Origin: Deltaproteobacteria bacterium
Lineage (GTDB): Bacteria > Desulfobacterota > Binatia > Binatales > Binataceae
Assembly: GCA_003135855.1 (NCBI GenBank)
Contig: PNBD01000153.1
Coordinates: 56,315-106,322 of the forward strand
DNA length: 50,008 bases
Direction: 5' to 3'
Shown: positions 27,594-44,560 of the stretch, one piece after another
How the letters are laid out: the number at the start of each line of letters is the position of its first letter
How positions within the stretch are numbered: the first letter of the stretch is position 1
Notes under the pieces: generated by a model
Told to the model about the DNA's origin: nothing
Seen by the model: the letters and a program-made list of their open reading frames with translations, nothing else
Database searches by the model: none
Position numbers and translations under genes: made by a program

Positions 27594-27644
27594 CTACGCC
27601 GCGATGCCTTGACAGCGCGTATCTGCATCGGCAACGTCATCACG

Positions 27645-29168
27645 ATGTCGTGGTGGCTTCGATGGCTAGTGATCTCGCCGGTTGTTCTGTTAATTGCAGC
27701 AGCGATGATGCTCAGTTGCGGCGGTAGTAGCGGTACCGTCGCAACTCCAACGCCGCCGCCCGGCTTTACGCTTCAATCAATAAACGTTGCTGATGGGCCG
27801 CCGACCTCGCCCACGCCGACTCCGTCGACCACCCCCAAAGGCAAGACGCCCACGATGACGCCGCGACCGGCCGCTACCAGCACCACAGTGCCAAACTCGG
27901 TGCCGACGGGTGGGCTCGTCCAGTTCAACGCCCAGGGAACTTTCCTGAAGCTGACGAACATCACTCGAATTCTCGATATCACCACTGGCCCGAACACGCT
28001 GTGGGGTTCGAGCAATCAGAGCGTCCTGGTTCCGCCTTCAACCGCCAATAACGGCGGCTCTTACACGACGGCGGCGCCAGGATGCGCCTGCATCACTGCG
28101 AGCTCATCGGGAATCATCAGCCAGTCCGTTGGAATCGGTGTCTATGTTGATGTGACCACCTGCCCTGCGTGCAGCGCCGCGGCGATGGTTTCCAGCGCGG
28201 TGCGCGCGCTGGATGCATCCAGCCTCGCGGCGCCGATTCAAAATGCGGGCATCCTGATGTGGACCTTCTACGCGGGCGCGCAACTTCGCGGCGGGATCGC
28301 GACGGCGCCTGACCACTCGATCTATTTCATCACGAGCGATGGAGTCCTGCGTGGTGTCGATTCTAGCGGTCTCGAAATTCTGCATCGGGCGGCGGACGGC
28401 AACGCACCGGTGGTTCTCTCGGATGGAACGATTGTCGCGAAGTCCGGGCCGCTCGAGCTAACTGCGGTCGGCGCCGACGGTCGCCTGAAATGGCATTCCG
28501 AAATTGGTCCCGGCGCCGGGCCAATTGCCGCCAACGACACGGCGATCTATGCGTCGTCGGGTACCGACCTGCTGTCTTTCAGCACTGGCGGCGCGCTCAA
28601 CTGGCGCGTCAACGTCGGGAAGGTCGCGAGCGCGGTCGCGACGACCGACGGCGCCGTGATCGGCACCTCGCTTGGAGCGATCACGTCGCTCGCGAGCGAC
28701 GGCGCGGTTGCATGGACGTTCGCGCCCGCCGGCGGATTCTCGGGCGCGCTCGCCACTGCCGACGACGTGATCTATGCGGGCTCGGCATCTGGCGCGATCT
28801 ACGCGCTCGATTCTCGCACTGGCAAGGAAGCATGGCACGTCAGCACGCGTCATCCTGTGATAGCGGGCCCGGCCGTAAGTCCTTCGGGACTGGTATTCTT
28901 CGGCTCCGACGCCGTTTACGGCGTTTCTCCCGACGGCCAGATCAAATGGACGCAGCCTGCGGTAAAGCCAAGCTCCAGCTCGATGTCGGCAGTCGGCACC
29001 GACGGAGTGTTCGGCGTCGATAGTTCCGAGATCGGCGCGATGCTTGGCGTCGACGGCAATTTCAACTGGTCGTCGGGAAGCTTCGGCAAGATTGCGACGA
29101 TCGCGGCGTCGTCAGACGGGATTCTTTACGTCGGCAACGCCGACGGCCGAATCTTCGCAGTCAAGTAG
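27645..29168 (+). CDS. PQQ-like beta-propeller lipoprotein with Thr/Pro-rich linker
   Basis: ORF 27609..29168; start ATG 27645; TM/lipobox ...AAAMMLSCGG; linker TPTPSTTPKGKTPTMTPRP; repeated W-x-x-blade units (GAINWRVNVG, GAVAWTFAPAG, KEAWHVSTRH). Confidence 0.8.
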   Translation: MSWWLRWLVISPVVLLIAAAMMLSCGGSSGTVATPTPPPGFTLQSINVADGPPTSPTPTPSTTPKGKTPTMTPRPAATSTTVPNSVPTGGLVQFNAQGTFLKLTNITRILDITTGPNTLWGSSNQSVLVPPSTANNGGSYTTAAPGCACITASSSGIISQSVGIGVYVDVTTCPACSAAAMVSSAVRALDASSLAAPIQNAGILMWTFYAGAQLRGGIATAPDHSIYFITSDGVLRGVDSSGLEILHRAADGNAPVVLSDGTIVAKSGPLELTAVGADGRLKWHSEIGPGAGPIAANDTAIYASSGTDLLSFSTGGALNWRVNVGKVASAVATTDGAVIGTSLGAITSLASDGAVAWTFAPAGGFSGALATADDVIYAGSASGAIYALDSRTGKEAWHVSTRHPVIAGPAVSPSGLVFFGSDAVYGVSPDGQIKWTQPAVKPSSSSMSAVGTDGVFGVDSSEIGAMLGVDGNFNWSSGSFGKIATIAASSDGILYVGNADGRIFAVK

Positions 29169-29233
29169 TCTCCGCTTGCGCGACGACTCAGCAGTGAGGT
29201 GCGAACGATCGCATAACATGCGATCATAGAAAC

Positions 29234-29734
29234 ATGAGCGCCATCGACATCATCAAGCGCCGTCTCAAGGAAGATCGCGTTCCCGAGACTCCCGACGAAA
29301 TCAGCCGCAAAAAGAAACGCCCGCGCGAAGTCGCGTTCATGGACGTGAACCTGTGCTTCCCCTGCGGCAAGTGCCCGGAGTTTTGCCCCGTTCAATGCCT
29401 CGAATACATGCGGCCGGGATCGGTTCCCGGGCGTGGCGTTCAGCCGGTGCAGGATCGCTTCCAGGAATGCATCGGATGCTACATCTGCGTCGAGGTATGC
29501 GCCCTGCTCACCGACTACGACGCGATCCGGATGTACGACTCGAACATGGTCGAGGACGTGCTCGGCGTGAAAATCACTGACACTCCGCCGGACCCTCCGA
29601 TCCCCGCAGAGCCGTACGAAGAATATTTTTCCGAGGGTGGCTTGTATCGGCACCTCGGCAAGGGCTCGCGCATTCGCGAGAAGATGACTGCCGAAGAGCG
29701 CGCAATTTTCGCCCGCGAACGCGTCCGCAGCTAG
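29234..29734 (+). CDS. Ferredoxin-like protein with two 4Fe-4S-type Cys clusters
   Basis: 166-aa ORF; CFPCGKCPEFCPVQC and CIGCYICVEVC. Confidence 0.82.
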   Translation: MSAIDIIKRRLKEDRVPETPDEISRKKKRPREVAFMDVNLCFPCGKCPEFCPVQCLEYMRPGSVPGRGVQPVQDRFQECIGCYICVEVCALLTDYDAIRMYDSNMVEDVLGVKITDTPPDPPIPAEPYEEYFSEGGLYRHLGKGSRIREKMTAEERAIFARERVRS

Positions 29735-29895: not shown

Positions 29896-30546
29896 ATGGA
29901 ACGTAACGCCCGGCGCGCGCAAGTATTGCGCCACGCCAAACGCATATTCGCTCGCAAGGGCTATCACCGGACCAACGTCGCGGATATCATCGCTCGCGCG
30001 CGAATCGCACGCGGCACTTTTTATCTCTACTTCCAGAACAAGAAGGATCTCTTTGAGGAATTGCTCGAGCAAGTGGTGACCGAACTGACGCGACGAATCG
30101 AGCGGCTCCGCGTCGGACCAGCCGAGCCTGACCCGGTGCAACAATTGCGCGCGAATCTCAATCGAGTGCTGAGCTACGTTCTCGCGGAGCGCGAGCTTAC
30201 CGACATCCTGCTCAATCATTCGACCGGTTTCGATCGCGAGCTCGATGAAAAAATTCAGGATTTCTACGATCGGATCGCGGCGTTGATTAAGCGCTCGCTG
30301 GATCTCGGTATCGAGATGAACCTGGTGCGAAGTTCCGATACGCAGGTGGTCGCTTATTGTATTCTCGGCGGAATCAAGGAGGCGATCGCGGTGCTCTCGC
30401 GCAGCCGCCAGAAAGATATTTCGGCGCTGGTCGAGCAGATTCTCGACTTCGGTCTGCGCGGCGTCGCCCGCCCCGAGTTGCTCGAGGCGGTTCGAGCAAT
30501 GGGCGACACCTCATCGAAATTCGCTTCTTTTTTGGGCCCCAACTAG
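29896..30546 (+). CDS. TetR/AcrR-family transcriptional regulator
   Basis: 216-aa ORF; RRAQVLRHAKRIFARKGYHRTNVADIIARARIARGTFYLYFQNKKDLFEELL. Confidence 0.95.
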   Translation: MERNARRAQVLRHAKRIFARKGYHRTNVADIIARARIARGTFYLYFQNKKDLFEELLEQVVTELTRRIERLRVGPAEPDPVQQLRANLNRVLSYVLAERELTDILLNHSTGFDRELDEKIQDFYDRIAALIKRSLDLGIEMNLVRSSDTQVVAYCILGGIKEAIAVLSRSRQKDISALVEQILDFGLRGVARPELLEAVRAMGDTSSKFASFLGPN

Positions 30547-30552
30547 ACTGAC

Positions 30553-31359
30553 ATGTCAGTTTATCAACGTCAGCAACCGGCCAGGACGCCACGCCATGCC
30601 CGAGCGATTTCACCTCGGCGGCGCGCCGCATTCTACGATCTCGACGGCACCCTGATGGACCTGAACCTGGTGCACGCCGCGCTCTTCACCTTCACCAATA
30701 TCGGCGAATGGGGCCGGCGCGTGTCCTACATGATGGCCTTCGTCTCACGCCTGCCGCGCATGTATATCGCCGAACGCCGAGACCGGCGCCTGCTCAATAT
30801 CGTGCTGTTCGAAGCGTTCAAGGGAGTCTCGCGCGACCGGCTGTTTTCGTTGGGCGAGGAATACTGCGAGCGGGTGCTGATTGCTCATCTTTATCCGCGC
30901 GCAATCGAAATGATCGAAGCGAATCGCGCCGCCGGCATCGAACCCGTGCTAGTGACCGGCTCGCCGGATTTCATCGTCGCCCCGCTTGCGGAGCATCTCG
31001 GTATCGACGCGTTCGCGGCGAATCAGTTTATCTTCAGCCGCGGACGCGCAACCGGCCGTCTCTCGGAGCCGATCATGGCCGGCGAGGAGAAAGCAGTCTG
31101 GTGCGGGAAGTGGGCATCGGAGCGCGGAATGGATCTGGCCGACTGCTGGGGCTATGCCGACTCGCACCATGACATGGCGTTTCTGAACGCTATGGGGCAT
31201 CCGGTCGCGGTGAATCCGGATCGCAGACTCAAGGCGGTCGCGATGAACCGGCAGTGGCCGGTGATTCATTTCAAGAAACAATCATCGAAAAACGACAACG
31301 ACTTTTACAACCATTACGACTTCGACAAGTCGACTAGGGAATCGGATGGCGCGACCTGA
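30553..31359 (+). CDS. HAD-IB family hydrolase (SerB-like)
   Basis: 268-aa ORF; AAFYDLDGTLMDLN, LVTGSPDFIVAPLAEHLG, GYADSHHDMAFLNAMGHPVAVNPD. Confidence 0.92.
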   Translation: MSVYQRQQPARTPRHARAISPRRRAAFYDLDGTLMDLNLVHAALFTFTNIGEWGRRVSYMMAFVSRLPRMYIAERRDRRLLNIVLFEAFKGVSRDRLFSLGEEYCERVLIAHLYPRAIEMIEANRAAGIEPVLVTGSPDFIVAPLAEHLGIDAFAANQFIFSRGRATGRLSEPIMAGEEKAVWCGKWASERGMDLADCWGYADSHHDMAFLNAMGHPVAVNPDRRLKAVAMNRQWPVIHFKKQSSKNDNDFYNHYDFDKSTRESDGAT

Positions 31360-32986
31360 AAGTAAGCTCATGGAACTCAAACCCGCCGAGCTTCGGCACG
31401 AGGTCGGCGCGCGCCGCGACCTGGTCGTGACGCTGAATCGCCGCTCGGAAAAGCGCCTGATTCCCTACGGCGAGGAGTTTCTGTTCGAGAAATTGCCGGT
31501 CGGTACGCGCGTGATTTATCCGCCGCCGCCGCTCGATCCGCTTGCTGATCCCGATCAGGCGATTCGCTACGCCCTGCTCCATCCGGAAAATCAGGATCCG
31601 CTGTTCGCGCAACTCAATCCCAACATGCGCGTCACGATCGCGATCGATGACCTCAGCCTGCCGCTGCCTCAGATGCGCCGTCCCGACATTCGCGAGCGGC
31701 TGCTTAACCAGGTTCTCCAGACGCTGGCCGATTACGGCGTCGACGACGTGCATCTGGTCATCGCCACTTCGCTCCATCGCCGCATGACCGAGGCGGAAAT
31801 CCGCCGCATCGTCGGCGAACGCGCATTCAAGCAGTACTGGCCCGACCGTCTTTACAATTTCGACGCTGAGAATCGCGCGGAACTCGCGATGCTCGGCAAG
31901 ACCGAACATCAGGAGGAAGTCTGGCTGTCGCGACGCGCCGCCGAATCGGATCTCGTCATTTATCTGAACGTCAACCTGGTGCCGATGGACGGCGGGCACA
32001 AGTCGGTGGCCGTCGGCCTCGCGCCGTATCAAAGCCTGCGCCATCACCACAACGCCGCGACGCTCCGCGATTCGCATTCGTACATGGATCCGACACGATC
32101 GGCGCTGCATCGATCATCCGATCGGATGGGCAAGCTGATTCACAAGTCGCTCAACATTTTTCAGATCGAAACCGCCGTCAACACTCAGATGTACGGCGGG
32201 ATGCTCGATTTCCTGCAGAAAAACGAAGACACCTTCAACGACTGGGATCACACGCGGCTCAAGGGATTTCAGTGGACGATGCGCAATATGTCGAACGACC
32301 TGCGGCGGCGCGCTCTCCACAATTACGCGGCGCCCTTCGGCATGATTGGCGTCTGGGCCGGCGATACCGAGGCGGTTCATCAGAAAACTCTCGCCAAGGT
32401 TTTTCAGCAGTACGCCGTGCCGGTGAAAGGACAAGCCGACATCCTGATTGTCGGCGTCCCGTATATCTGCCCTTACAACGTGAACTCGATCATGAACCCG
32501 GTGCTGGTCCAGTGCACCGGCCTCGGCTACCTGTTCAACATGTATCGCAACAAGCCGCTGGTGCGCGAAGGCGGCACGATGATCATCTGTCATCCGCTGC
32601 GTGACGAGTTTCATCCGGAGCATCATCCGAGCTACATCGAATTTTTCCATCGATGCCTCGCCGAGACGACTGACGCGATCGAACTCGAGAAGCAATTCGA
32701 GCGCGAGTTCGCGCACAACCCGACTTATATCCACATGTACCGCTACGGAAACGCGTACCACGGCGTGCATCCGTTCTACATGTGGTACTGGGGTGAGCCC
32801 GCGCGCCAGCACGTCGGCCGCGTAATCGCAGCCGGATGCGAAGAGCCGGAAATTGCGGCGCGCATGGGATGGGACGCCGCGGACACGCTCGATGAAGCGA
32901 TCGCGATGGCGACCTCGGAACTCGGGCGGTCGGCGTCGATCACGTACCTGCATCTGCCGCCGCTGGTGATCGCGGATGTCGAGTAG
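31346..32986 (+). CDS. LarA-like (DUF2088 / nickel-pincer racemase superfamily) protein
   Basis: 546-aa [99 protein letters not shown]; alternative start 31370. Confidence 0.65.
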
Positions 32987-35900
32987 CAACGGCAAGCGCA
33001 ATGGCGCCGCGATGCCGCCGCTCGAGCAAATGCTCAAGGGCCGCCGCATCCTTGTGACCGGCGCGACCGGCTTCCTTGGCAAAGTCTTCGTCGCGCTGCT
33101 CCTTCGATGGCATCCCGAGATTGACAAAATTTACTTGCTCATCCGCGGCGACGCGCGTAGCACCCTCAATCGCTTTCGCCGGGAAATTCTTGACTCGCCG
33201 GTGATGGGTCCGCTGCGCGAGCATCTCGGCGAAGAATTTGACCGTTACGTCGAAGAAAAACTCGCCGTCGTGCCAGGCGACATAACGAACGTTGGTCTGC
33301 TCGCCGAAGGCGAGAAGCCGTTCAAGGCGGGCTCGATCGACGCGGTCGTGCACAGCGCCGGTTTCGTCAACTTCGAAGCGTCGTTGGAAAAGGCGCTCGA
33401 GGTCAACACCATCGGTGTCGCCAACGTGATCGAATTCTGCCGCCAAATCGGCGCCGCCATGATGCTGATATCGACCTGCTACGTCGCGGGCGCCGCCGAT
33501 GGACATCGCTACGAGGACGACCTCCCCGAGAACTGGTGCCCGAATGGGCGCAAATCATTTCGCCTGGATCGCGAAATCCGCGAATCGCTCGCCGTGATCG
33601 AACGGGTCGAGGCCGAATCGCGCGATCAACTTCGTCATACCGAATTTCAGGGAGACGATGACGACGCCGAGAGCACGCGCGAGGCTGCGATCGAGAATCG
33701 CCGCAAGACCTGGGTCGACACCCGTCTGAAGGAAATCGGTAAGAAGCGCGCGCGAAGCTGGGGATGGCCGAATACCTATAGCTTCACCAAGAGCCTCGGC
33801 GAGCAGTTGGTGATCGCAGAGCGCGACGCGCTCAAAGTCACTGTCGTGAGGCCCGCGGTAATCGAAAGCGCGATGCACGATCCGTTTCCCGGCTGGAACG
33901 AAGGCGTCAATACTAGCGCGCCGCTCACCTACCTGTCGGGACGCGGTTATCGCTTCTATCCCGCCAAGGCGGAACTGGTGCTCGACGTGATTCCAGTCGA
34001 TTACGTTGCGCACGCGATGATTCCGATTCTCGCCGTGCTGATTGCGGGCAAGCAAAAATCGATCTATCAACTCTGCACCTCCGATCGAAATCCGCTCCCG
34101 ATGCGCCAACTCGTCGAGCTGACCGGACTCGCCAGCCGCAAACAGCTTCGCAAAGATGGCGGCGTGATGGGCTGGCTGGCGCCCCAGCTCGAGGCCGTCG
34201 TCGTTTCGCAGCGCACTTACGATCTCGCGAGCGACACGATGCCGCGAATCCTCAAGCAGGGCGCGGAATTCGCGCGCAGTGTCCTGGGCGAGGAAAATCA
34301 GCCGGCGAAAAAGCTTCACAGCGGAATCGTGAAAATCAAGGAGACGATGGATCTCGCCCGCGACATGGTCGACATCTATCAACCATACATTCAGAAGCTC
34401 TTTTACACTTTTCACGGCAAGAACACTCGCGACCTTTACGCATCGCTCCGCCCCGCCGACGTCGAGCATCATCCGTATCGCCCCGACTTGATCGATTGGC
34501 ACGACTACTGGCTCAACATTCATATGCCCGGCCTGCGCCGGCACATCTATCCGCAGCTCGATATCCATACGCGCGGCCGTTACAAATCGTTGCCCCGCTA
34601 TCGCAACCTGGTGGATTTGCTTGATCGAGCCGCGGACCGATACGGCGCGCAAGTCGCGATGATCGCGCGGCGGCCGTCGGGTGAGCAGTCGCAGGTCACT
34701 TATCGCGAGCTGCGCGATAAGGCGCGTCGCGCCGCGCTGTTGCTGGCCACGCGCGGCATCAAGCCCGGCGATCGCGTCCTGCTTATCGCTGAGAACTCGC
34801 CCGACTGGGTGCTCGGCTATTTCGCGATTCTGTGCGCGGGCGCGATCGCCGTCCCGCTCGATCACCTGATGTCAGCCGAGGAACTCGCACCAATATGTAA
34901 AATCGCTGAACCGTCGGCGGCGCTTCGCTCGGCAACGGTCCACCAGCGCCTCGGCAGTGCGATCAAGGACGCGGTCCCAAAAATCGTCGAGCTGGATCTC
35001 GCCGAACTAGGCCGCCCCTTCATTCTGCGCGGCGATACGAAATCTCCGCCTGCGCCTCCGGAACGCAAGGCGCTCGCATCGATCGTGTTCACTTCCGGCA
35101 GCACCGGCGCGCCGAAAGGCGTGATGCTGACGCATGGCAACTTCGGCGCCGAGATCGCGATGCTCTCGCGCGTCTTCGTGCTCGGTGGCGACGACGTCGT
35201 CCTGTCGCTGTTGCCGTTGCATCATACGTTTGAATTCACCTGCGGGATGCTGCTGCCGCTCGCCAGTGGCGCCACGATCGCGTATCCGCTCGAAGTCGAT
35301 GCGAAGACGCTATCGCGAACGCTCGCCGATATTCGCCCAACTGCGCTCATCGGCGTGCCCGCCGTGTGGGAAGCGATTCATCGCCGCATCATCGACGAAG
35401 TCGAAGCGCGCGGTCCGTTCTTCCACGCTGCGTTCGATCGATTGCGCGATCTGAATCGGCGACTCGACTCGGACTACGGTCTGAATTTCGGCTCGATCGT
35501 TTTTCGCCAGATGCACTCCGCGCTCGGTGGCCGGCTGAAGCTGGCCGTTAGCGGTGGCTCCGCCCTGCCCCACCGCGTCGCGGATTTTTTTAACGACATC
35601 GGAATTCCGCTGCTCGAAGGTTATGGAATGACCGAAGCGGCGCCCGTGCTCGCAGTTGCCAGGCCTGACGAGCCGCTCAAGGTGGGATCCGTCGGCAAGC
35701 CGCTGAACGGCGTCGAGATCAAGCTCGAGCCTGAAGGCGAGCAGGTCGGCTCGATCGTTGTGCGCGGCTCCAATGTGATGGCGGGTTACTATCGGAACGA
35801 TGTCGCCACCGGCGAAGTTCTCAAAGACGGATGGCTGCACACCGGCGACCTCGGCCGCTTCGACGACGAAGGCCGGCTCTACGTCGTCGGTCGCGCGAAG

Positions 35901-37346
35901 GAAGTCATCGTCGATTCCGGCGGCAACAACATCTATATCGAAGAGGTCGAAGAGGCGTACGGCCGCTCGCACTACGTGAAAGAGATGGCCGTCGTGGGCC
36001 TCAATGTCGGACGCAGCGAGCAGGTTGCCGCGCTGGTCGTGCCGGCGTATGCGCGCGGTGAAAGCCGGCGCGCCGTCGAGGATCGGCTGCGCGGTGATTT
36101 CGAAAAGGTTGGCAAGGAACTCAGTCTGCATAAGCGCATCAGGATCGTTCGCTTCACCGACGTCGAACTGCCGCGCACTCGCACCCGCAAGATCAAACGA
36201 CCCGAAGTGGTGGCGATTTTGCGCCGGATGCTGGAAGCGCGCATCGCGAACGCAACAGTTGTCGACACCGAAGTCGAGCAATGGCTCGCAGATGCGCTTG
36301 CCAACATAACCAGCGAGCCGGTTAGTATCACCCTGGGCACGCAGCTGATCGAGGATTTGGGCCTGGACTCTCTGGCGATGGCCGAAATCGGCGAAATAAT
36401 CGGCGAGCGCGCCGGCCGCGATATCAGCCCGGAAGAAATCTCAGACCTGCGGACGGTCGCCGACTTGCAGCATCTCGCGTCGCAGCCGGGCGTCAACGGA
36501 CGTCCCCGGCTGCCGTCCTATGCGCGATTCGCCGAGCCGTACACGATTCAGTTGCCGGCACCGCTGCGCACGCTTGGCCGCTCGGCGTTGCGTTCGACGC
36601 AGCGCGCGCTGTTCGAAGGATGGCTCAAGCCGCAGATTCTCGGACGCGGAAACATCCCGGCCAACAGCAATTTTATCGTGGTGGCGAACCATTCCAGCCA
36701 TCTCGACTTCGGACTCGTGGGCTATGCGCTCGGCAAGATTGGCGACGACCTGCGGGTGCTCGCGGCCAAGGATTATTTCTTCAACACGCCGGCGCGGCGA
36801 TTTCTCGCGAGCAATTTCACGTCGCTGATGCCGTTCGATCGCGAGCGCGCGCAGCTCGAATCGCTCGAAGATGCGCTCGCGGAGTTGGCCAAGGGCCGCA
36901 GTGTCCTGATGTTCCCCGAGGGCACCCGCTCGCCCGGGAACGAGGTGCAGGAATTCAAGAGCGGCGCGGGATTTCTCGCGCTGCGCAGCCGATGCGACGT
37001 GCTGCCGGTGCTGATTCGCGGCACGCACGAGGTGCTGGGCAAAGGAAGTCTGTTCCCGCGGCGCCATCCAGTCGAGGTGCGCATCGGCGCGCCGATCACG
37101 GCGGCGACGATGCTTGAGGTAGTCGCCAGCACCGACGGTGCGGGCGCGTACCGCAAACTCGCCGACCTGATGCGCGAAACGGTGGTGCGGCTCGCTGGTT
37201 CGGGCCGACAGACGCGCCGCGTGAAGGCGCCGGCTGTCGCCGACGCGCCGGTTGTTTCGAGTCCTGTTGTATCCGATCCTGCAGCGCCCGAGCGGCGGCA
37301 GGGACATCCGGCGCATCGCACGACACACGGGCGCGCCAAAGCCTGA
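32976..37346 (+). CDS. Multidomain fusion: NAD(P)-dependent acyl reductase (NAD_binding_4) - AMP-dependent acyl-CoA/ACP ligase - acyl carrier domain - PlsC acyltransferase
   Basis: 1456 aa; GRRILVTGATGFLGKVFVALLLR and YSFTKSLGEQLV; IVFTSGSTGAPKGVMLTHGN and DGWLHTGDLGRFD; LIEDLGLDSLAMAEIGEIIG; VVANHSSHLDFG and FPEGTRSPG. Confidence 0.93.
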   Translation: MSSSNGKRNGAAMPPLEQMLKGRRILVTGATGFLGKVFVALLLRWHPEIDKIYLLIRGDARSTLNRFRREILDSPVMGPLREHLGEEFDRYVEEKLAVVPGDITNVGLLAEGEKPFKAGSIDAVVHSAGFVNFEASLEKALEVNTIGVANVIEFCRQIGAAMMLISTCYVAGAADGHRYEDDLPENWCPNGRKSFRLDREIRESLAVIERVEAESRDQLRHTEFQGDDDDAESTREAAIENRRKTWVDTRLKEIGKKRARSWGWPNTYSFTKSLGEQLVIAERDALKVTVVRPAVIESAMHDPFPGWNEGVNTSAPLTYLSGRGYRFYPAKAELVLDVIPVDYVAHAMIPILAVLIAGKQKSIYQLCTSDRNPLPMRQLVELTGLASRKQLRKDGGVMGWLAPQLEAVVVSQRTYDLASDTMPRILKQGAEFARSVLGEENQPAKKLHSGIVKIKETMDLARDMVDIYQPYIQKLFYTFHGKNTRDLYASLRPADVEHHPYRPDLIDWHDYWLNIHMPGLRRHIYPQLDIHTRGRYKSLPRYRNLVDLLDRAADRYGAQVAMIARRPSGEQSQVTYRELRDKARRAALLLATRGIKPGDRVLLIAENSPDWVLGYFAILCAGAIAVPLDHLMSAEELAPICKIAEPSAALRSATVHQRLGSAIKDAVPKIVELDLAELGRPFILRGDTKSPPAPPERKALASIVFTSGSTGAPKGVMLTHGNFGAEIAMLSRVFVLGGDDVVLSLLPLHHTFEFTCGMLLPLASGATIAYPLEVDAKTLSRTLADIRPTALIGVPAVWEAIHRRIIDEVEARGPFFHAAFDRLRDLNRRLDSDYGLNFGSIVFRQMHSALGGRLKLAVSGGSALPHRVADFFNDIGIPLLEGYGMTEAAPVLAVARPDEPLKVGSVGKPLNGVEIKLEPEGEQVGSIVVRGSNVMAGYYRNDVATGEVLKDGWLHTGDLGRFDDEGRLYVVGRAKEVIVDSGGNNIYIEEVEEAYGRSHYVKEMAVVGLNVGRSEQVAALVVPAYARGESRRAVEDRLRGDFEKVGKELSLHKRIRIVRFTDVELPRTRTRKIKRPEVVAILRRMLEARIANATVVDTEVEQWLADALANITSEPVSITLGTQLIEDLGLDSLAMAEIGEIIGERAGRDISPEEISDLRTVADLQHLASQPGVNGRPRLPSYARFAEPYTIQLPAPLRTLGRSALRSTQRALFEGWLKPQILGRGNIPANSNFIVVANHSSHLDFGLVGYALGKIGDDLRVLAAKDYFFNTPARRFLASNFTSLMPFDRERAQLESLEDALAELAKGRSVLMFPEGTRSPGNEVQEFKSGAGFLALRSRCDVLPVLIRGTHEVLGKGSLFPRRHPVEVRIGAPITAATMLEVVASTDGAGAYRKLADLMRETVVRLAGSGRQTRRVKAPAVADAPVVSSPVVSDPAAPERRQGHPAHRTTHGRAKA

Positions 37347-37367: not shown

Positions 37368-38216
37368 ATGATGAAGCGCGCAGGAGCGATTGCTTTCGCG
37401 ATTGTCTCGCTCCTGCTGCTCCATCCGGCGCCGACGCGCGCGTGGGACAATCGAACGCATCGCGAAATTGCGCAGCTCGCGATCGAGCGACTCCCGCCGT
37501 CGCCGCTGAAGGATTATTTCCTCGCGAACGATGAGCGCCTGCGCCGTCTGTCGGTCGAGCCCGACTCGATTTTGAAGCATCGCTACGGCAAGGCCGAGCA
37601 GATTCGCCATTACATCAATATCGAGTACTTCGGCGCGGACCCGTTCGCCGCGATTGTGGCGGATCGCCAGGCGATGGAGCGGAAATTTGGCGTATCGACC
37701 ATGCAGCACGCCGGTACGCTGCCGTGGACAATCGAGGAAGTTGCCGAGGGGCTACATCAGGCGTGGGCGCGCGGTGACTGCGAGCAGGTGCTGCAACAGG
37801 CCGGTTATTTGGCGCATTACGTGGGCGACGCGAGCCAGCCGCTTCATTCGACGATTCTATTTGATGGCTATCGGCGCGACCGCGGGATGCACGCGCGGAT
37901 CGAACTGGCGGTAGATGATCACATCGATGAAATCGGCATCGCGGCGAGCCGCGAGACGAAGGCGCCAGCTATCGATTCGGTGTGGCCGCCGGTGATCGCG
38001 CAGATTCGCGAAGCCAATTCACATGTCGAAGAATTGATTCAAGCCGATCGCTCCGCCCGCAATGGCGGTTCGCGCCGGGACTATGAGGAGGCGTTCATCG
38101 GGCGCGAACGGACGCTGGTTGTGAGCGAGGTCGCGAGCGCCGCCTCGCTGCTGGCCTCGATTTGGTTGTTCGAATGGAAGCATTCCGGCAGTCCGGCGAA
38201 ATGCTCCAGTCAGTAA
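37368..38216 (+). CDS. S1/P1-type nuclease family protein (secreted)
   Basis: 282-aa ORF; signal peptide; WDNRTHREIAQLAIERLP, AHYVGDASQPLHSTILFDGYRRDRGMHARIE. Confidence 0.82.
   Translation: MMKRAGAIAFAIVSLLLLHPAPTRAWDNRTHREIAQLAIERLPPSPLKDYFLANDERLRRLSVEPDSILKHRYGKAEQIRHYINIEYFGADPFAAIVADRQAMERKFGVSTMQHAGTLPWTIEEVAEGLHQAWARGDCEQVLQQAGYLAHYVGDASQPLHSTILFDGYRRDRGMHARIELAVDDHIDEIGIAASRETKAPAIDSVWPPVIAQIREANSHVEELIQADRSARNGGSRRDYEEAFIGRERTLVVSEVASAASLLASIWLFEWKHSGSPAKCSSQ
38114..38146 (+). repeat. Dispersed repeat inside 3' end of the S1/P1 gene; second copy at 38659-38691
   Basis: gctggttgtgagcgaggtcgcgagcgccgcctc vs gctggttgttagcgaggtcgccagcgccgcttc: 30/33 identical by eye. Confidence 0.8.
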
Positions 38217-40646: not shown

Positions 40647-41483
40647 CTAGGGCTTTTGCTCGGATTCCGACCTAATGGCGGTGGCGATGTCGCTGCTCAT
40701 CTGCGCGAGAGCGCGGCTATGAGCGGCGGCGAGCACCTCGAAGCTATCGCCTTGCACCGGCTCGCGCGCGACCGTGCGGCCCGAGCGCGAGTCTCCGCCG
40801 ACCGCGGTCTTGCGTACGGTCCATACCGCCTCGAGCAGCGTTGCCTGGCCGCGAATCGAGTCGAAGCGTTGGACATCGATGGTGACCCGGTAGTCCGGGT
40901 TGAAGTTGGCGAGCTGGGTGGTCGCTACCTCCGGCGTCCCGAGCAAGGTTGCGAGATCGCCGGCGACGGCGCGCGCGATCGCATCGCTAAGCGGCGCGAC
41001 CCATCGGTTGAACTCTTCCACCTCGACGCGATTCGGTGCGACCTGCACCACGAACTCCGGCTGGTCAACCGAAGCGGGGATGGAGACCGGCCCGACCATC
41101 ACGGTGGCGCGCGAGGCCGCGTGGCCGTCCGCGATCGCGGTGGAGTCTAGGTTGTAGAAGCGGGCCGGCGTCGAGGTGCCGCATCCGGCTAGAGCGACGG
41201 CGATAACGACGAGCGAGATGAGATGCGCGATGCGGGCTGCTATCACTTGGCCTCTTATCACTTGGGCTCCTTTTATTGCTGTGGCCGCGCGAGCCAAGGA
41301 CCGCTTCGCGGTTCCGAAACCGGTACCGGCATCTTTATCTTGTAGCGATTCGGAAAGCGGACCCTCTCCTGACGTCTCACCGCTGCGCGTTGTTCGGCGT
41401 CGTCCTTTCCCGGACTGGGAGAGGGGAAGAACGGCTATTACTTGGCCTATCAATTGCCGACCTATGATTTGGCCTACTATCAC
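40647..41483 (-). CDS. pqiC: ABC-type transport auxiliary lipoprotein, PqiC-like (real start probably internal)
   Basis: SLVVIAVALAGCGTSTPARFYNLDS lipobox; ARATVMVGPVSIPASVDQPEFVVQVAPNRVEVEEFNRWVAPL; N-terminal ~70 aa is repeat-derived. Confidence 0.8.
   Translation of the reverse strand: MIVGQIIGRQLIGQVIAVLPLSQSGKGRRRTTRSGETSGEGPLSESLQDKDAGTGFGTAKRSLARAATAIKGAQVIRGQVIAARIAHLISLVVIAVALAGCGTSTPARFYNLDSTAIADGHAASRATVMVGPVSIPASVDQPEFVVQVAPNRVEVEEFNRWVAPLSDAIARAVAGDLATLLGTPEVATTQLANFNPDYRVTIDVQRFDSIRGQATLLEAVWTVRKTAVGGDSRSGRTVAREPVQGDSFEVLAAAHSRALAQMSSDIATAIRSESEQKP
41348..41428. repeat. Intergenic repeat copy B (pair with 40535-40615)
   Basis: Same-orientation near-identical sequence, lying within the called N-terminus of pqiC. 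Confidence 0.85.
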
Positions 41484-43075
41484 TTGGCCTGCCCCTGCTT
41501 GCCGCGGAGCAGCGCCTCGGGATGGCGCTCGAGATAGTCGGCGAGCACGCGCACCGAGCGGGCCGCACGGGTCAACTCCTGCAGCGTAGTGTTCAGTTTT
41601 TCGATCTGCACGGAATTCGGCTGGATGATGCCGTTGGCGCTATCGAGGGTGCCGTGGGCGCTATCGAGCGTACCGCGGGCGCTCGCGAGGGTCAGGTCGA
41701 GGTCGGCGATAGCTTTGCGGAGGTTGTCGCCGATTTCCTTCAAGGGCATCTGGTCGATCTTCTTGATGATGCTCTCGACGCTGGCCTCGACCTCGGTGAA
41801 CTGTCCCTGAATGGTCGGCAACTGCACCGGCTTTTGCGACCAATCGACGGTCACGGGCGGCGCGCCGGGAAAAAAGTCGAGCGAGACGAATGTGGCCCCG
41901 GTCAGCAAGTTACCGGTACGAAGCTGGGCGCGGACTCCGTGGGCTATGAGCGAGTCGATTAACTTGCGACGCATCGTGTCGAGGTTCACGACCGGACCGA
42001 GATCGAAGATTTTGACCCCGAGTTTGCGCGGGTCGAGGCTGATCGTCACCGGCACCGAGAACTGGAAGGTCTTGAGATCGATTTGCGCGTTGATGTCGGT
42101 GACCTCGCCGATCGGAATGCCGCGGAACTCGACCGGCGCTCCCGGCACGAGCCCGCGCGTCGAGTCCTTGAAGATGAGCTGGTAGGTCTGCGGATTGCGC
42201 GGCGGCGGATTGAAGGCCTCGGCGCGGTTGCCGTAGAGGGTGAAGACGGCGTTGTCCTCGGACGGCGGCAAGACCAGGACGCTGGACGGGGCGGTCTCGA
42301 ACGCGATGCCGCCAATCAGGATCGACAATACCGACTGGGTCTGCATACTGAGGCCGTTGGCGGAGAGTGACAGGTCGATTCCGCTCGCGTGCCAGAAGCG
42401 GGTATCGGGGTTGACGTACTGATCGTAGGGCGCCTGCACGAAGACCTTGACGGTCAGAAACTTGCCGTCCTTGTCGAGTTCGTACGACGCGACCTGGCCG
42501 ACCTGGAGGCGTCGGAAATAGATCGGCGTGCCGGTGTCGATCGAGCCTAAGTCGGCGGTCTTCAGGATAAAAAAGCGGCCGGGGAATTCGCCGGTAATCA
42601 CCGGCGGGGTTTCGAGCGCAACGAAGTCGCTCTTGCTCTCTTGCGAAGTGCCGATCTCCACGCCGATGTAGGCGCCTGAGATGAGGGTGCCGAGGCCCGT
42701 TATGTTGGCGCCCGAGATGCGAGGGCGGACGACCCAGAACTTGGTATCGGCGAGCAGGAATGCGTCGGTCTTGGGCGCCATCTGCGCGGTGGCGATCGCG
42801 CGCTGGTGATCCTCCGATAGGCGAATCTTGGTGACGGTGCCGATATCGACGCCGTTGTAGTGAATCTTGGTTTTGCCAGCTTCCAGCCCTTCGGCAGATC
42901 GGAAGACGATCGTTATTTTGGGCCCCTCGCTCATGACCCTGGTCACTGCCACCCATACGCCGACCAGCGCCGCGACGATCGGGATGATCCAAACCAACGA
43001 GAGCCGCGTGCGCTTTTTGGGCACAGCTCTCGACTCGGGGACTGAAGGGAGTGATGGTGGGTCGCGATCAGGCAT
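41480..43075 (-). CDS. pqiB: MCE-domain intermembrane transport protein PqiB
   Basis: 531-aa ORF; N-terminal TM; three MCE-like repeats (GPKITIVFRSAEGLEAGKTKIHYNGVDIGTVTKI; DTGTPIYFRRLQVGQVASYEL; DSTRGLVPGAPVEFRGIPIGEVTDI). Confidence 0.92.
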   Translation of the reverse strand: MPDRDPPSLPSVPESRAVPKKRTRLSLVWIIPIVAALVGVWVAVTRVMSEGPKITIVFRSAEGLEAGKTKIHYNGVDIGTVTKIRLSEDHQRAIATAQMAPKTDAFLLADTKFWVVRPRISGANITGLGTLISGAYIGVEIGTSQESKSDFVALETPPVITGEFPGRFFILKTADLGSIDTGTPIYFRRLQVGQVASYELDKDGKFLTVKVFVQAPYDQYVNPDTRFWHASGIDLSLSANGLSMQTQSVLSILIGGIAFETAPSSVLVLPPSEDNAVFTLYGNRAEAFNPPPRNPQTYQLIFKDSTRGLVPGAPVEFRGIPIGEVTDINAQIDLKTFQFSVPVTISLDPRKLGVKIFDLGPVVNLDTMRRKLIDSLIAHGVRAQLRTGNLLTGATFVSLDFFPGAPPVTVDWSQKPVQLPTIQGQFTEVEASVESIIKKIDQMPLKEIGDNLRKAIADLDLTLASARGTLDSAHGTLDSANGIIQPNSVQIEKLNTTLQELTRAARSVRVLADYLERHPEALLRGKQGQAK

Positions 43076-43766
43076 AGGTAACCTCTTTCGAATCTGCCGC
43101 TTGCGAGCTTGCAGAGTCCCAGATCAGGCGCGGATCGAAGGACTCGACCGCGAGCATCGTCAGCACCACCACCGCCGCAAAGAAGATCAAGCCGGGACCC
43201 GGCTCGACCGACATCAGCGGCTGTAGTTGGATAAGAGCGGCGGTGAAGGTATCGACGAATACATCGACCATCGACCAGCGTCCGATCAACTCGACCATCC
43301 GGTAGAGCCGGACGCGCTGCTCGTTGTTGGCGACCGAGCCGCGCTGGGCGGTGACGAGCAGGTATGCGAGCGCCAGAATTTTTGCGCTGGGGATCATGAT
43401 GCTCGCGACGAGCACGATGATCGACAAGGGCCATCCGGTCGGCGACCATAGGAGCACAACGCCTTGCATGATGGTGTCGGACTCGGCGCCGGCGGCGGTA
43501 GTGGTCGTCAAGACGGGAAGGACGTTGGCCGGGATGTAACAGATCGCGGCGCCGATCAAGTAAGCCCAGGTGCGCTGGAAACTGGCGGACTTGCGGAAAA
43601 CGAGCTCCTCATCGCATCGCGGGCATCGTCCTTCGTCCTCGCCGGGGCGTCCTTCGTCCTCGCCGGGGCGCCCTTCGTCCTCGCCAGGCATAGGACGCGA
43701 GAGCAGGCCGCATCCTTCGCAGCTTTGCAGGCCTTGCTGCATCGCGGTCGCGGCGGCCGGACTCAC
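43068..43766 (-). CDS. pqiA: PqiA-domain membrane protein (second half)
   Basis: ORF 43068..44036 but GTG at 43766 overlaps the upstream TGA (GTGA); zinc-ribbon-like CEGCG...CPRC; four TM; ITxIMQGVVLLWSPTGWPLSIIVLVASI. Confidence 0.87.
   Translation of the reverse strand: MSPAAATAMQQGLQSCEGCGLLSRPMPGEDEGRPGEDEGRPGEDEGRCPRCDEELVFRKSASFQRTWAYLIGAAICYIPANVLPVLTTTTAAGAESDTIMQGVVLLWSPTGWPLSIIVLVASIMIPSAKILALAYLLVTAQRGSVANNEQRVRLYRMVELIGRWSMVDVFVDTFTAALIQLQPLMSVEPGPGLIFFAAVVVLTMLAVESFDPRLIWDSASSQAADSKEVTYA
43621..43690 (-). repeat. 21-bp tandem repeat x3 inside the second pqiA gene
   Basis: (G/C)TCCTTCGTCCTCGCCGGGGC-type units encoding PGEDEGR x3 between the Cys pairs. Confidence 0.9.
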
Positions 43767-44560
43767 GCGGGCTCCTTGGCCATACCATCGCCGGCGGCGG
43801 GTCGCTGCGCTTCGTCCGCCCACTGGATCTTCTCCCACACCTCGCGCGAGTCGAAGGCGGCTTGCATCGCGGCCAGCAGAAAGACCAGCACCCATAGAAC
43901 GAACAGCGCAACGCCCGGGATCACCGTCGCGTAATCCGCAATCTTGACCAGCGCGACGAGCACGCCGACCATCATGACTTCGATCATGCTCCAGATCCGC
44001 GTAGTTGGGTGATGGCGCAGCAGCGCACCGACCCATCGCGGCGGGCGTTCGCGCCGACCGGCGAGCACGATCGCGAGCATCAGGCCGATTTGCAGCGCCG
44101 GTGCAATCACGGCGGTGAAGAGCACCAGTATCGCGACGATCTGCTGGTCGTTATCCCACAGATGCTTGGCGCCTCCGATCACCGTAGTGGACGCATCGCG
44201 CCCGACGATCGTAAGGCCGAGCATCGGCACGGAGTTCGCAACGACGTAGAGCACTGCGGCCGCGAGCGTCAGCGCAAGCGTCCGATTGAGCGAATCCTCG
44301 CGGCGGCGCCAGAGCTCCTTGTTGCAACGCGGGCATCGCGCAGACGCGCCGGGCGCGAGATCGGGAAGGCGCTGCAGCAAATCGCAGTGCAGACACGCGA
44401 TGAGCCCGTGGTCGCCAACTGGCTGATTGTAGGCTTCGCTACTCAATTCGCTGAGCGATCGCCAAATTGCGATATGAGGTGAGTCAAACTTTGTCGGCCC
44501 CTTTCGGTTGCGATTCGGCAGAACCGGGATGAGTTTCCCGCCCGGCGCGGTCGGTTGCAA
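43763..44560 (-). CDS. pqiA: PqiA-domain membrane protein (first half)
   Basis: 265-aa ORF; LIACLHCDLLQRLPDLAPGASARCPRCNKELWRRREDSLNRTLALTLAAAVLYVVANSVPML. Confidence 0.9.
   Translation of the reverse strand: MQPTAPGGKLIPVLPNRNRKGPTKFDSPHIAIWRSLSELSSEAYNQPVGDHGLIACLHCDLLQRLPDLAPGASARCPRCNKELWRRREDSLNRTLALTLAAAVLYVVANSVPMLGLTIVGRDASTTVIGGAKHLWDNDQQIVAILVLFTAVIAPALQIGLMLAIVLAGRRERPPRWVGALLRHHPTTRIWSMIEVMMVGVLVALVKIADYATVIPGVALFVLWVLVFLLAAMQAAFDSREVWEKIQWADEAQRPAAGDGMAKEPA

Follow-up and report, generated by a model that had tools for sequence, protein, structure and literature searches.

The single intact open reading frame at positions 32976-37346 of the forward strand of the window (the whole stretch of 50,008 nucleotides analysed here) starts with ATG, codes for 1456 aa and in all likelihood encodes the ElbD of Binataceae, a multidomain bacterial enzyme of ether-lipid synthesis, in an operon with the order TetR–HAD (elbB)–LarA-like (elbC)–elbD. 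The source is a metagenome-assembled genome (MAG) of Candidatus Binataceae (Binatota), 4.5 Mb in size and 90% complete, in which the window corresponds to contig C72. ElbD-type ether-lipid synthesis is thereby predicted for an uncultured soil lineage, which is relevant where soil ether lipids serve as source markers.

Domain architecture and identity of the fused protein

The genes of the operon and the domains of the elbD-type product are as follows (window coordinates, with residue numbers for the domains):

29896-30546, + strand: TetR-family regulator heading the operon (PF00440; in 19 of 20 neighbourhoods, the remaining contig ending before it)
30553-31359, + strand: HAD-IB phosphatase in the elbB position (TIGR01490; same position in Binataceae and myxobacteria)
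31346-32986, + strand: LarA-like nickel-pincer-nucleotide protein (LarAH14/15/16) in the elbC position (NF052592, fold, co-occurrence)
32976-37346, + strand: elbD-type gene, FAR–AMP ligase–ACP–PlsC-type acyltransferase (ORF, Pfam, full-length relatives)
33054-34019, + strand: NAD(P)-binding fatty acyl reductase (FAR) core, residues 27-348 (PF07993, PDB 7eoz, invariant TGxTGFLGK, Y268/K272)
34344-34547, + strand: C-terminal "Sterile" domain of FAR, residues 457-524 (PF03015, sub-threshold)
34620-36191, + strand: AMP-forming acyl ligase, N and C parts, residues 549-1072 (PF00501, PF13193)
36279-36467, + strand: acyl carrier domain, residues 1102-1164, with pantetheine site Ser1132 (PF00550, invariant LGLDSL)
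36642-37016, + strand: PlsC-type acyltransferase, residues 1223-1347 (PF01553, PDB 5kym)

In the Pfam search of the window protein, NAD_binding_4 (residues 27-348, E 1.4e-48) is followed by AMP-binding (549-939, E 5.7e-81), AMP-binding_C (990-1072), PP-binding (1102-1164, E 1.2e-6), and Acyltransferase (1223-1347, E 3.4e-23). The Sterile domain at residues 457-524 (E 2.8e-6) scores 27.9 bits against a curated cut-off of 35.4; it reached 33.4 bits in a second search and is also present in Corallococcus ElbD. Catalytic residues were read from an alignment of 12 Binataceae sequences, in which the dinucleotide motif G29-x-T31-G32-F33-L34-G35-K36 and the Y268/K272 pair of the reductase, the A3 motif T706-S707-G708-x-T710-G711 of the ligase, the phosphopantetheine Ser1132, and the HX4D pair H1239/D1244 with F1313-PEGTR of the acyltransferase are all invariant. 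A sequence-only reading of this DNA had assigned four activities to this 1456-aa frame, in the order reductase–ligase–ACP–acyltransferase; the activities are borne out by Pfam and the invariant motifs, and the order by Pfam.

The same reading had taken the protein for a permuted carboxylic acid reductase (CAR) fused to PlsC, and for a new architecture. Like CARs, the window protein does contain a reductase, an adenylation and a carrier domain, and the NCBIfam model carboxyl_red matches it at 166 bits, with the best stretch within the ligase part, but the cut-off of this model is 1300. The N-terminal 538 residues match the fatty acyl-CoA reductase structure 7eoz over residues 17-525 at 181 bits, as against just 26 bits for CAR reductase domains, with the FAR-type Sterile domain lying behind; the A-T-R order of CARs was not found by Pfam in the window protein. 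Moreover, the identical domain order has already been described as ElbD (PMC9131029, PMC9426513), so that a permuted CAR of novel architecture can practically be dismissed. In the C-terminal part, PlsC alone was matched (5kym, 1-acyl-glycerol-3-phosphate acyltransferase). An enzyme of the Aas type (acyl-[ACP]-phospholipid O-acyltransferase, NF006386), which shares the acyltransferase and the AMP ligase with the window protein, was rejected as well, since Aas has no FAR and the window protein reaches 202 bits where the model requires 1221.

The known counterpart is ElbD of Myxococcus xanthus (GenBank ABF88003.1), in which, according to PMC9131029 reporting Lorenzen et al. 2014, an N-terminal FAR1-like domain is followed by an acyl-CoA synthetase, an ACP and an AGPAT-like acyltransferase. 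From the same source, disruption of elbD strongly lowers the ether lipids of this bacterium; PMC9131029 describes the ligase and ACP activities as demonstrated, and the FAR and acyltransferase activities as not. Searches of four myxobacterial genomes with the window protein each gave a single full-length hit (936-966 bits, 39-41% identity over ~1400 residues), with the second-best match at 206 bits or below, and the Pfam order of Corallococcus ElbD is identical to its own. In a tree built by a quick method, with long branches flagged, the Binataceae ElbDs form a single clade separate from the myxobacterial ElbDs (SH-aLRT 100). Thus, the window protein shares with M. xanthus ElbD the FAR–ACS–ACP–AT order, full-length homology (38-41%, measured on other myxobacterial ElbDs), and the HAD and LarA-like genes upstream, while Binataceae differ by the lack of elbA upstream and elbE downstream, by TetR at the head of the operon, and by belonging to a family without CarF. 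The ElbD and elbC assignments are anchored in congeners of M. xanthus that have this operon (loci L100, L110 and L132) rather than in the M. xanthus sequence.

ElbD-type proteins are known more widely. Sponge symbionts (Acidobacteriota, Poribacteria) carry elbD-type NRPS-like clusters with the same four-domain core gene and with hydrolase and oxidoreductase neighbours; they belong to other phyla and are likened here by description (PMC9426513). In the Black Sea, ElbD homologues occur across many phyla (PMC11868695). MXAN_1675, compared by its description in PMC9131029, also combines FAR with an acyltransferase (GNPAT-like) in one protein and adjoins AGPS, but has neither ligase nor ACP.

Occurrence in Binataceae and gene neighbourhood

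The full-length fusion is present in 30 of the 36 Binataceae genomes, in 29 of these without an internal stop; four further genomes have contig-split or partial copies, and two (G004 and G005) have no copy. The 22 genomes sampled from other families of the class gave ligase matches only. An uninterrupted frame is thus kept across many independent assemblies, and separate genes in close homologues, which the earlier reading had named as a sign of an assembly-made fusion, were not seen among the family genomes; the fusion is neither a chance nor an assembly product. It is ordinary for the ElbD family, its architecture has already been published, and Binataceae are an added lineage, for which no published ElbD was found in the literature. 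Two of the loci compared (L075 and L076) encode identical ElbD proteins under the titles Acidobacteria and Deltaproteobacteria, suggesting a misnamed or mis-binned MAG.

Within the operon, the HAD and LarA-like genes overlap by 14 nt, and the LarA-like gene and the start of elbD by 11 nt. The TetR–HAD–LarAH–ElbD arrangement is found in 19 of 20 Binataceae neighbourhoods, the 20th being cut within LarAH by the contig end. The order HAD–LarAH–ElbD–ElbE recurs in Myxococcus, Corallococcus, Archangium, and Anaeromyxobacter, and the Myxococcus locus L110 (epimerase–HAD–LarAH–ElbD–epimerase) reproduces the elbA–E order of M. xanthus, given in PMC9131029 as elbA (NAD epimerase), elbB (HAD), elbC (unknown), elbD, and elbE (NAD epimerase). 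In other myxobacteria, ElbD–ElbE stand apart, and LarAH is then usually near a HAD gene elsewhere.

Disruption of elbE in M. xanthus also results in fewer ether lipids, according to the same source (PMC9131029). No ElbE was found beside ElbD at the Binataceae loci, and the best match to it elsewhere in the source genome is an HpnA-like epimerase (37%) on contig C11, within a putative hopanoid/squalene cluster. A downstream elbE is to be regarded as a trait of the myxobacterial operon and not of the ElbD protein.

Several other genes surround the operon in the window. Roughly every second Binataceae neighbourhood has, behind elbD, a gene (37368-38216 in the window) for a small protein with weak matches to S1/P1 nuclease and Zn-dependent phospholipase C. 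The operon is preceded, within 27609-29734, by an open reading frame resembling a PQQ-type beta-propeller lipoprotein and by a ferredoxin-like protein (29234-29734), both kept in several relatives. On the minus strand at 40647-44560, nearby frames read like a putative PqiABC/MCE-type lipid transport set.

The LarA-like protein in the elbC position

By its position, the "unknown" elbC is a predicted LarA-family protein: the product of 31346-32986 scores 837.5 bits against NF052592 (LarAH14/15/16), above the curated cut-off of 740, and the Myxococcus eversor gene in the elbC position (L110, 8358-9965) scores 844.2. Sequence and fold comparisons both point to 9q3j and 9q2u/9q3k, LarA-like enzymes of the single-histidine type, as the nearest structures. 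An AlphaFold model obtained with 15 sequences (mean pLDDT 60.7) returns LarA structures and is too weak for reading the active site. In an alignment of about 20% identity, the invariant K219, H144, and H234/H235 would correspond to Lys184, His108, and His200 of LarA, and no histidine is seen where LarA His174 would fall. LarAH groups 14 and 15 are reported to lack His174 (PMC12611868); a LarAH14 protein from Frankia was inactive on the substrates tried, and it has been suggested that such LarA-like proteins perform other hydride-mediated reactions (PMC7583248). As for the NPN cofactor pathway, LarC and LarE were found in the source genome.

LarAH14/15/16 accompanies ElbD in 33 of 34 ElbD-bearing Binataceae, the exception having its ElbD at a contig end, and in each of the 16 comparison genomes with ElbD, most of them myxobacterial. 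No protein over the cut-off was found in the 24 relatives that lack ElbD or in the 14 control genomes. These counts are inflated by shared ancestry and come from a sample that left out ElbD-negative myxobacteria. In the literature searched, no relevant paper connected ether lipids or plasmalogens to LarA, lactate racemase or DUF2088; the tie between LarAH14/15/16 and ElbD is the part that may be new.

It is conceivable, and we put it forward tentatively, that ElbC (LarAH14/15/16) is an obligate partner in the ElbD pathway carrying out hydride transfer during ether-lipid formation, perhaps in an AGPS-independent step. If true, this would be the first role for the LarAH14/15/16 subfamily and would mean that aerobic ether-lipid synthesis needs nickel. 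In any case, a predicted family can now be assigned to the "unknown" elbC, together with a strong phylogenetic link to ElbD. This opens two questions to testing in M. xanthus, namely the AGPS-independent ether step and what a LarA subfamily with no known substrate does.

Predicted ether-lipid route and its alternatives

What is observed for Binataceae ElbD are its fold families and catalytic motifs, together with its orthology and synteny; we infer that it reduces and transfers acyl groups and that Binataceae contain ether lipids. In the proposed route, the ligase would adenylate a fatty acid and load the protein's own ACP at Ser1132, the FAR-type domain would reduce the acyl thioester to an aldehyde or alcohol as the source of the ether-linked chain, and the PlsC-type domain would acylate glycerol phosphate or a lyso-ether lipid. 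Ether-lipid synthesis is the likeliest function of Binataceae ElbD as predicted from orthology and synteny, and the suggestion of ether/alkyl lipids in the sequence-only reading has held up to this extent. The presence of homologues does not prove the product, since Pontiella has elbD homologues and ether lipids were not detected in it (PMC11868695).

The chemistry of a FAR with an acyltransferase could in principle also yield free fatty alcohols, wax esters or acyl lipids instead of ether lipids, but the acyltransferase domain matches a 1-acyl-glycerol-3-phosphate acyltransferase (5kym) rather than a wax synthase, and orthology and synteny connect the gene with the ether-lipid gene elbD, so that products of this kind are improbable. 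More weight, though still the lesser share, should be given to a division of labour like that of the animal peroxisomal route, where ElbD would only supply the fatty alcohol (and acyl-DHAP/LPA) and a separate AGPS-like FAD enzyme would make the ether bond. The reductase is indeed of the FAR and not the CAR type, and the source genome encodes an AGPS-like protein (the gene being truncated at the start of contig C11) which, among PDB entries, matches alkyl-DHAP synthases best and which keeps a THHH motif. However, the AGPS-like gene is not specific to ElbD because it is class-wide and occurs in G004, in G005 and in the majority of the other families without ElbD; AGPS was rejected as an ElbD-specific partner on these grounds. 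Besides, in M. xanthus, according to PMC9131029, AGPS disruption lowers ether lipids only slightly and elbD matters most. We thus consider the AGPS-dependent route doubtful, and retain ether-lipid synthesis centred on ElbD as the preferred reading.

The type of ether lipid can also be anticipated. The CarF family is absent from all 24 Binataceae genomes searched, which removes the CarF/plasmalogen route from consideration in this family, and because no CarF homologue was found, saturated alkyl ethers rather than vinyl ethers (plasmalogens) would be expected in Binataceae. CarF/PEDS1-family (PF10520) homologues do occur in two other, ElbD-less families of the class (G040:C14, locus L145, and G041:C273, locus L144). 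In the source genome, the AGPS-like gene lies, within locus L149 (C11:1-14000), about 8.5 kb from the putative hopanoid/squalene cluster holding HpnA.
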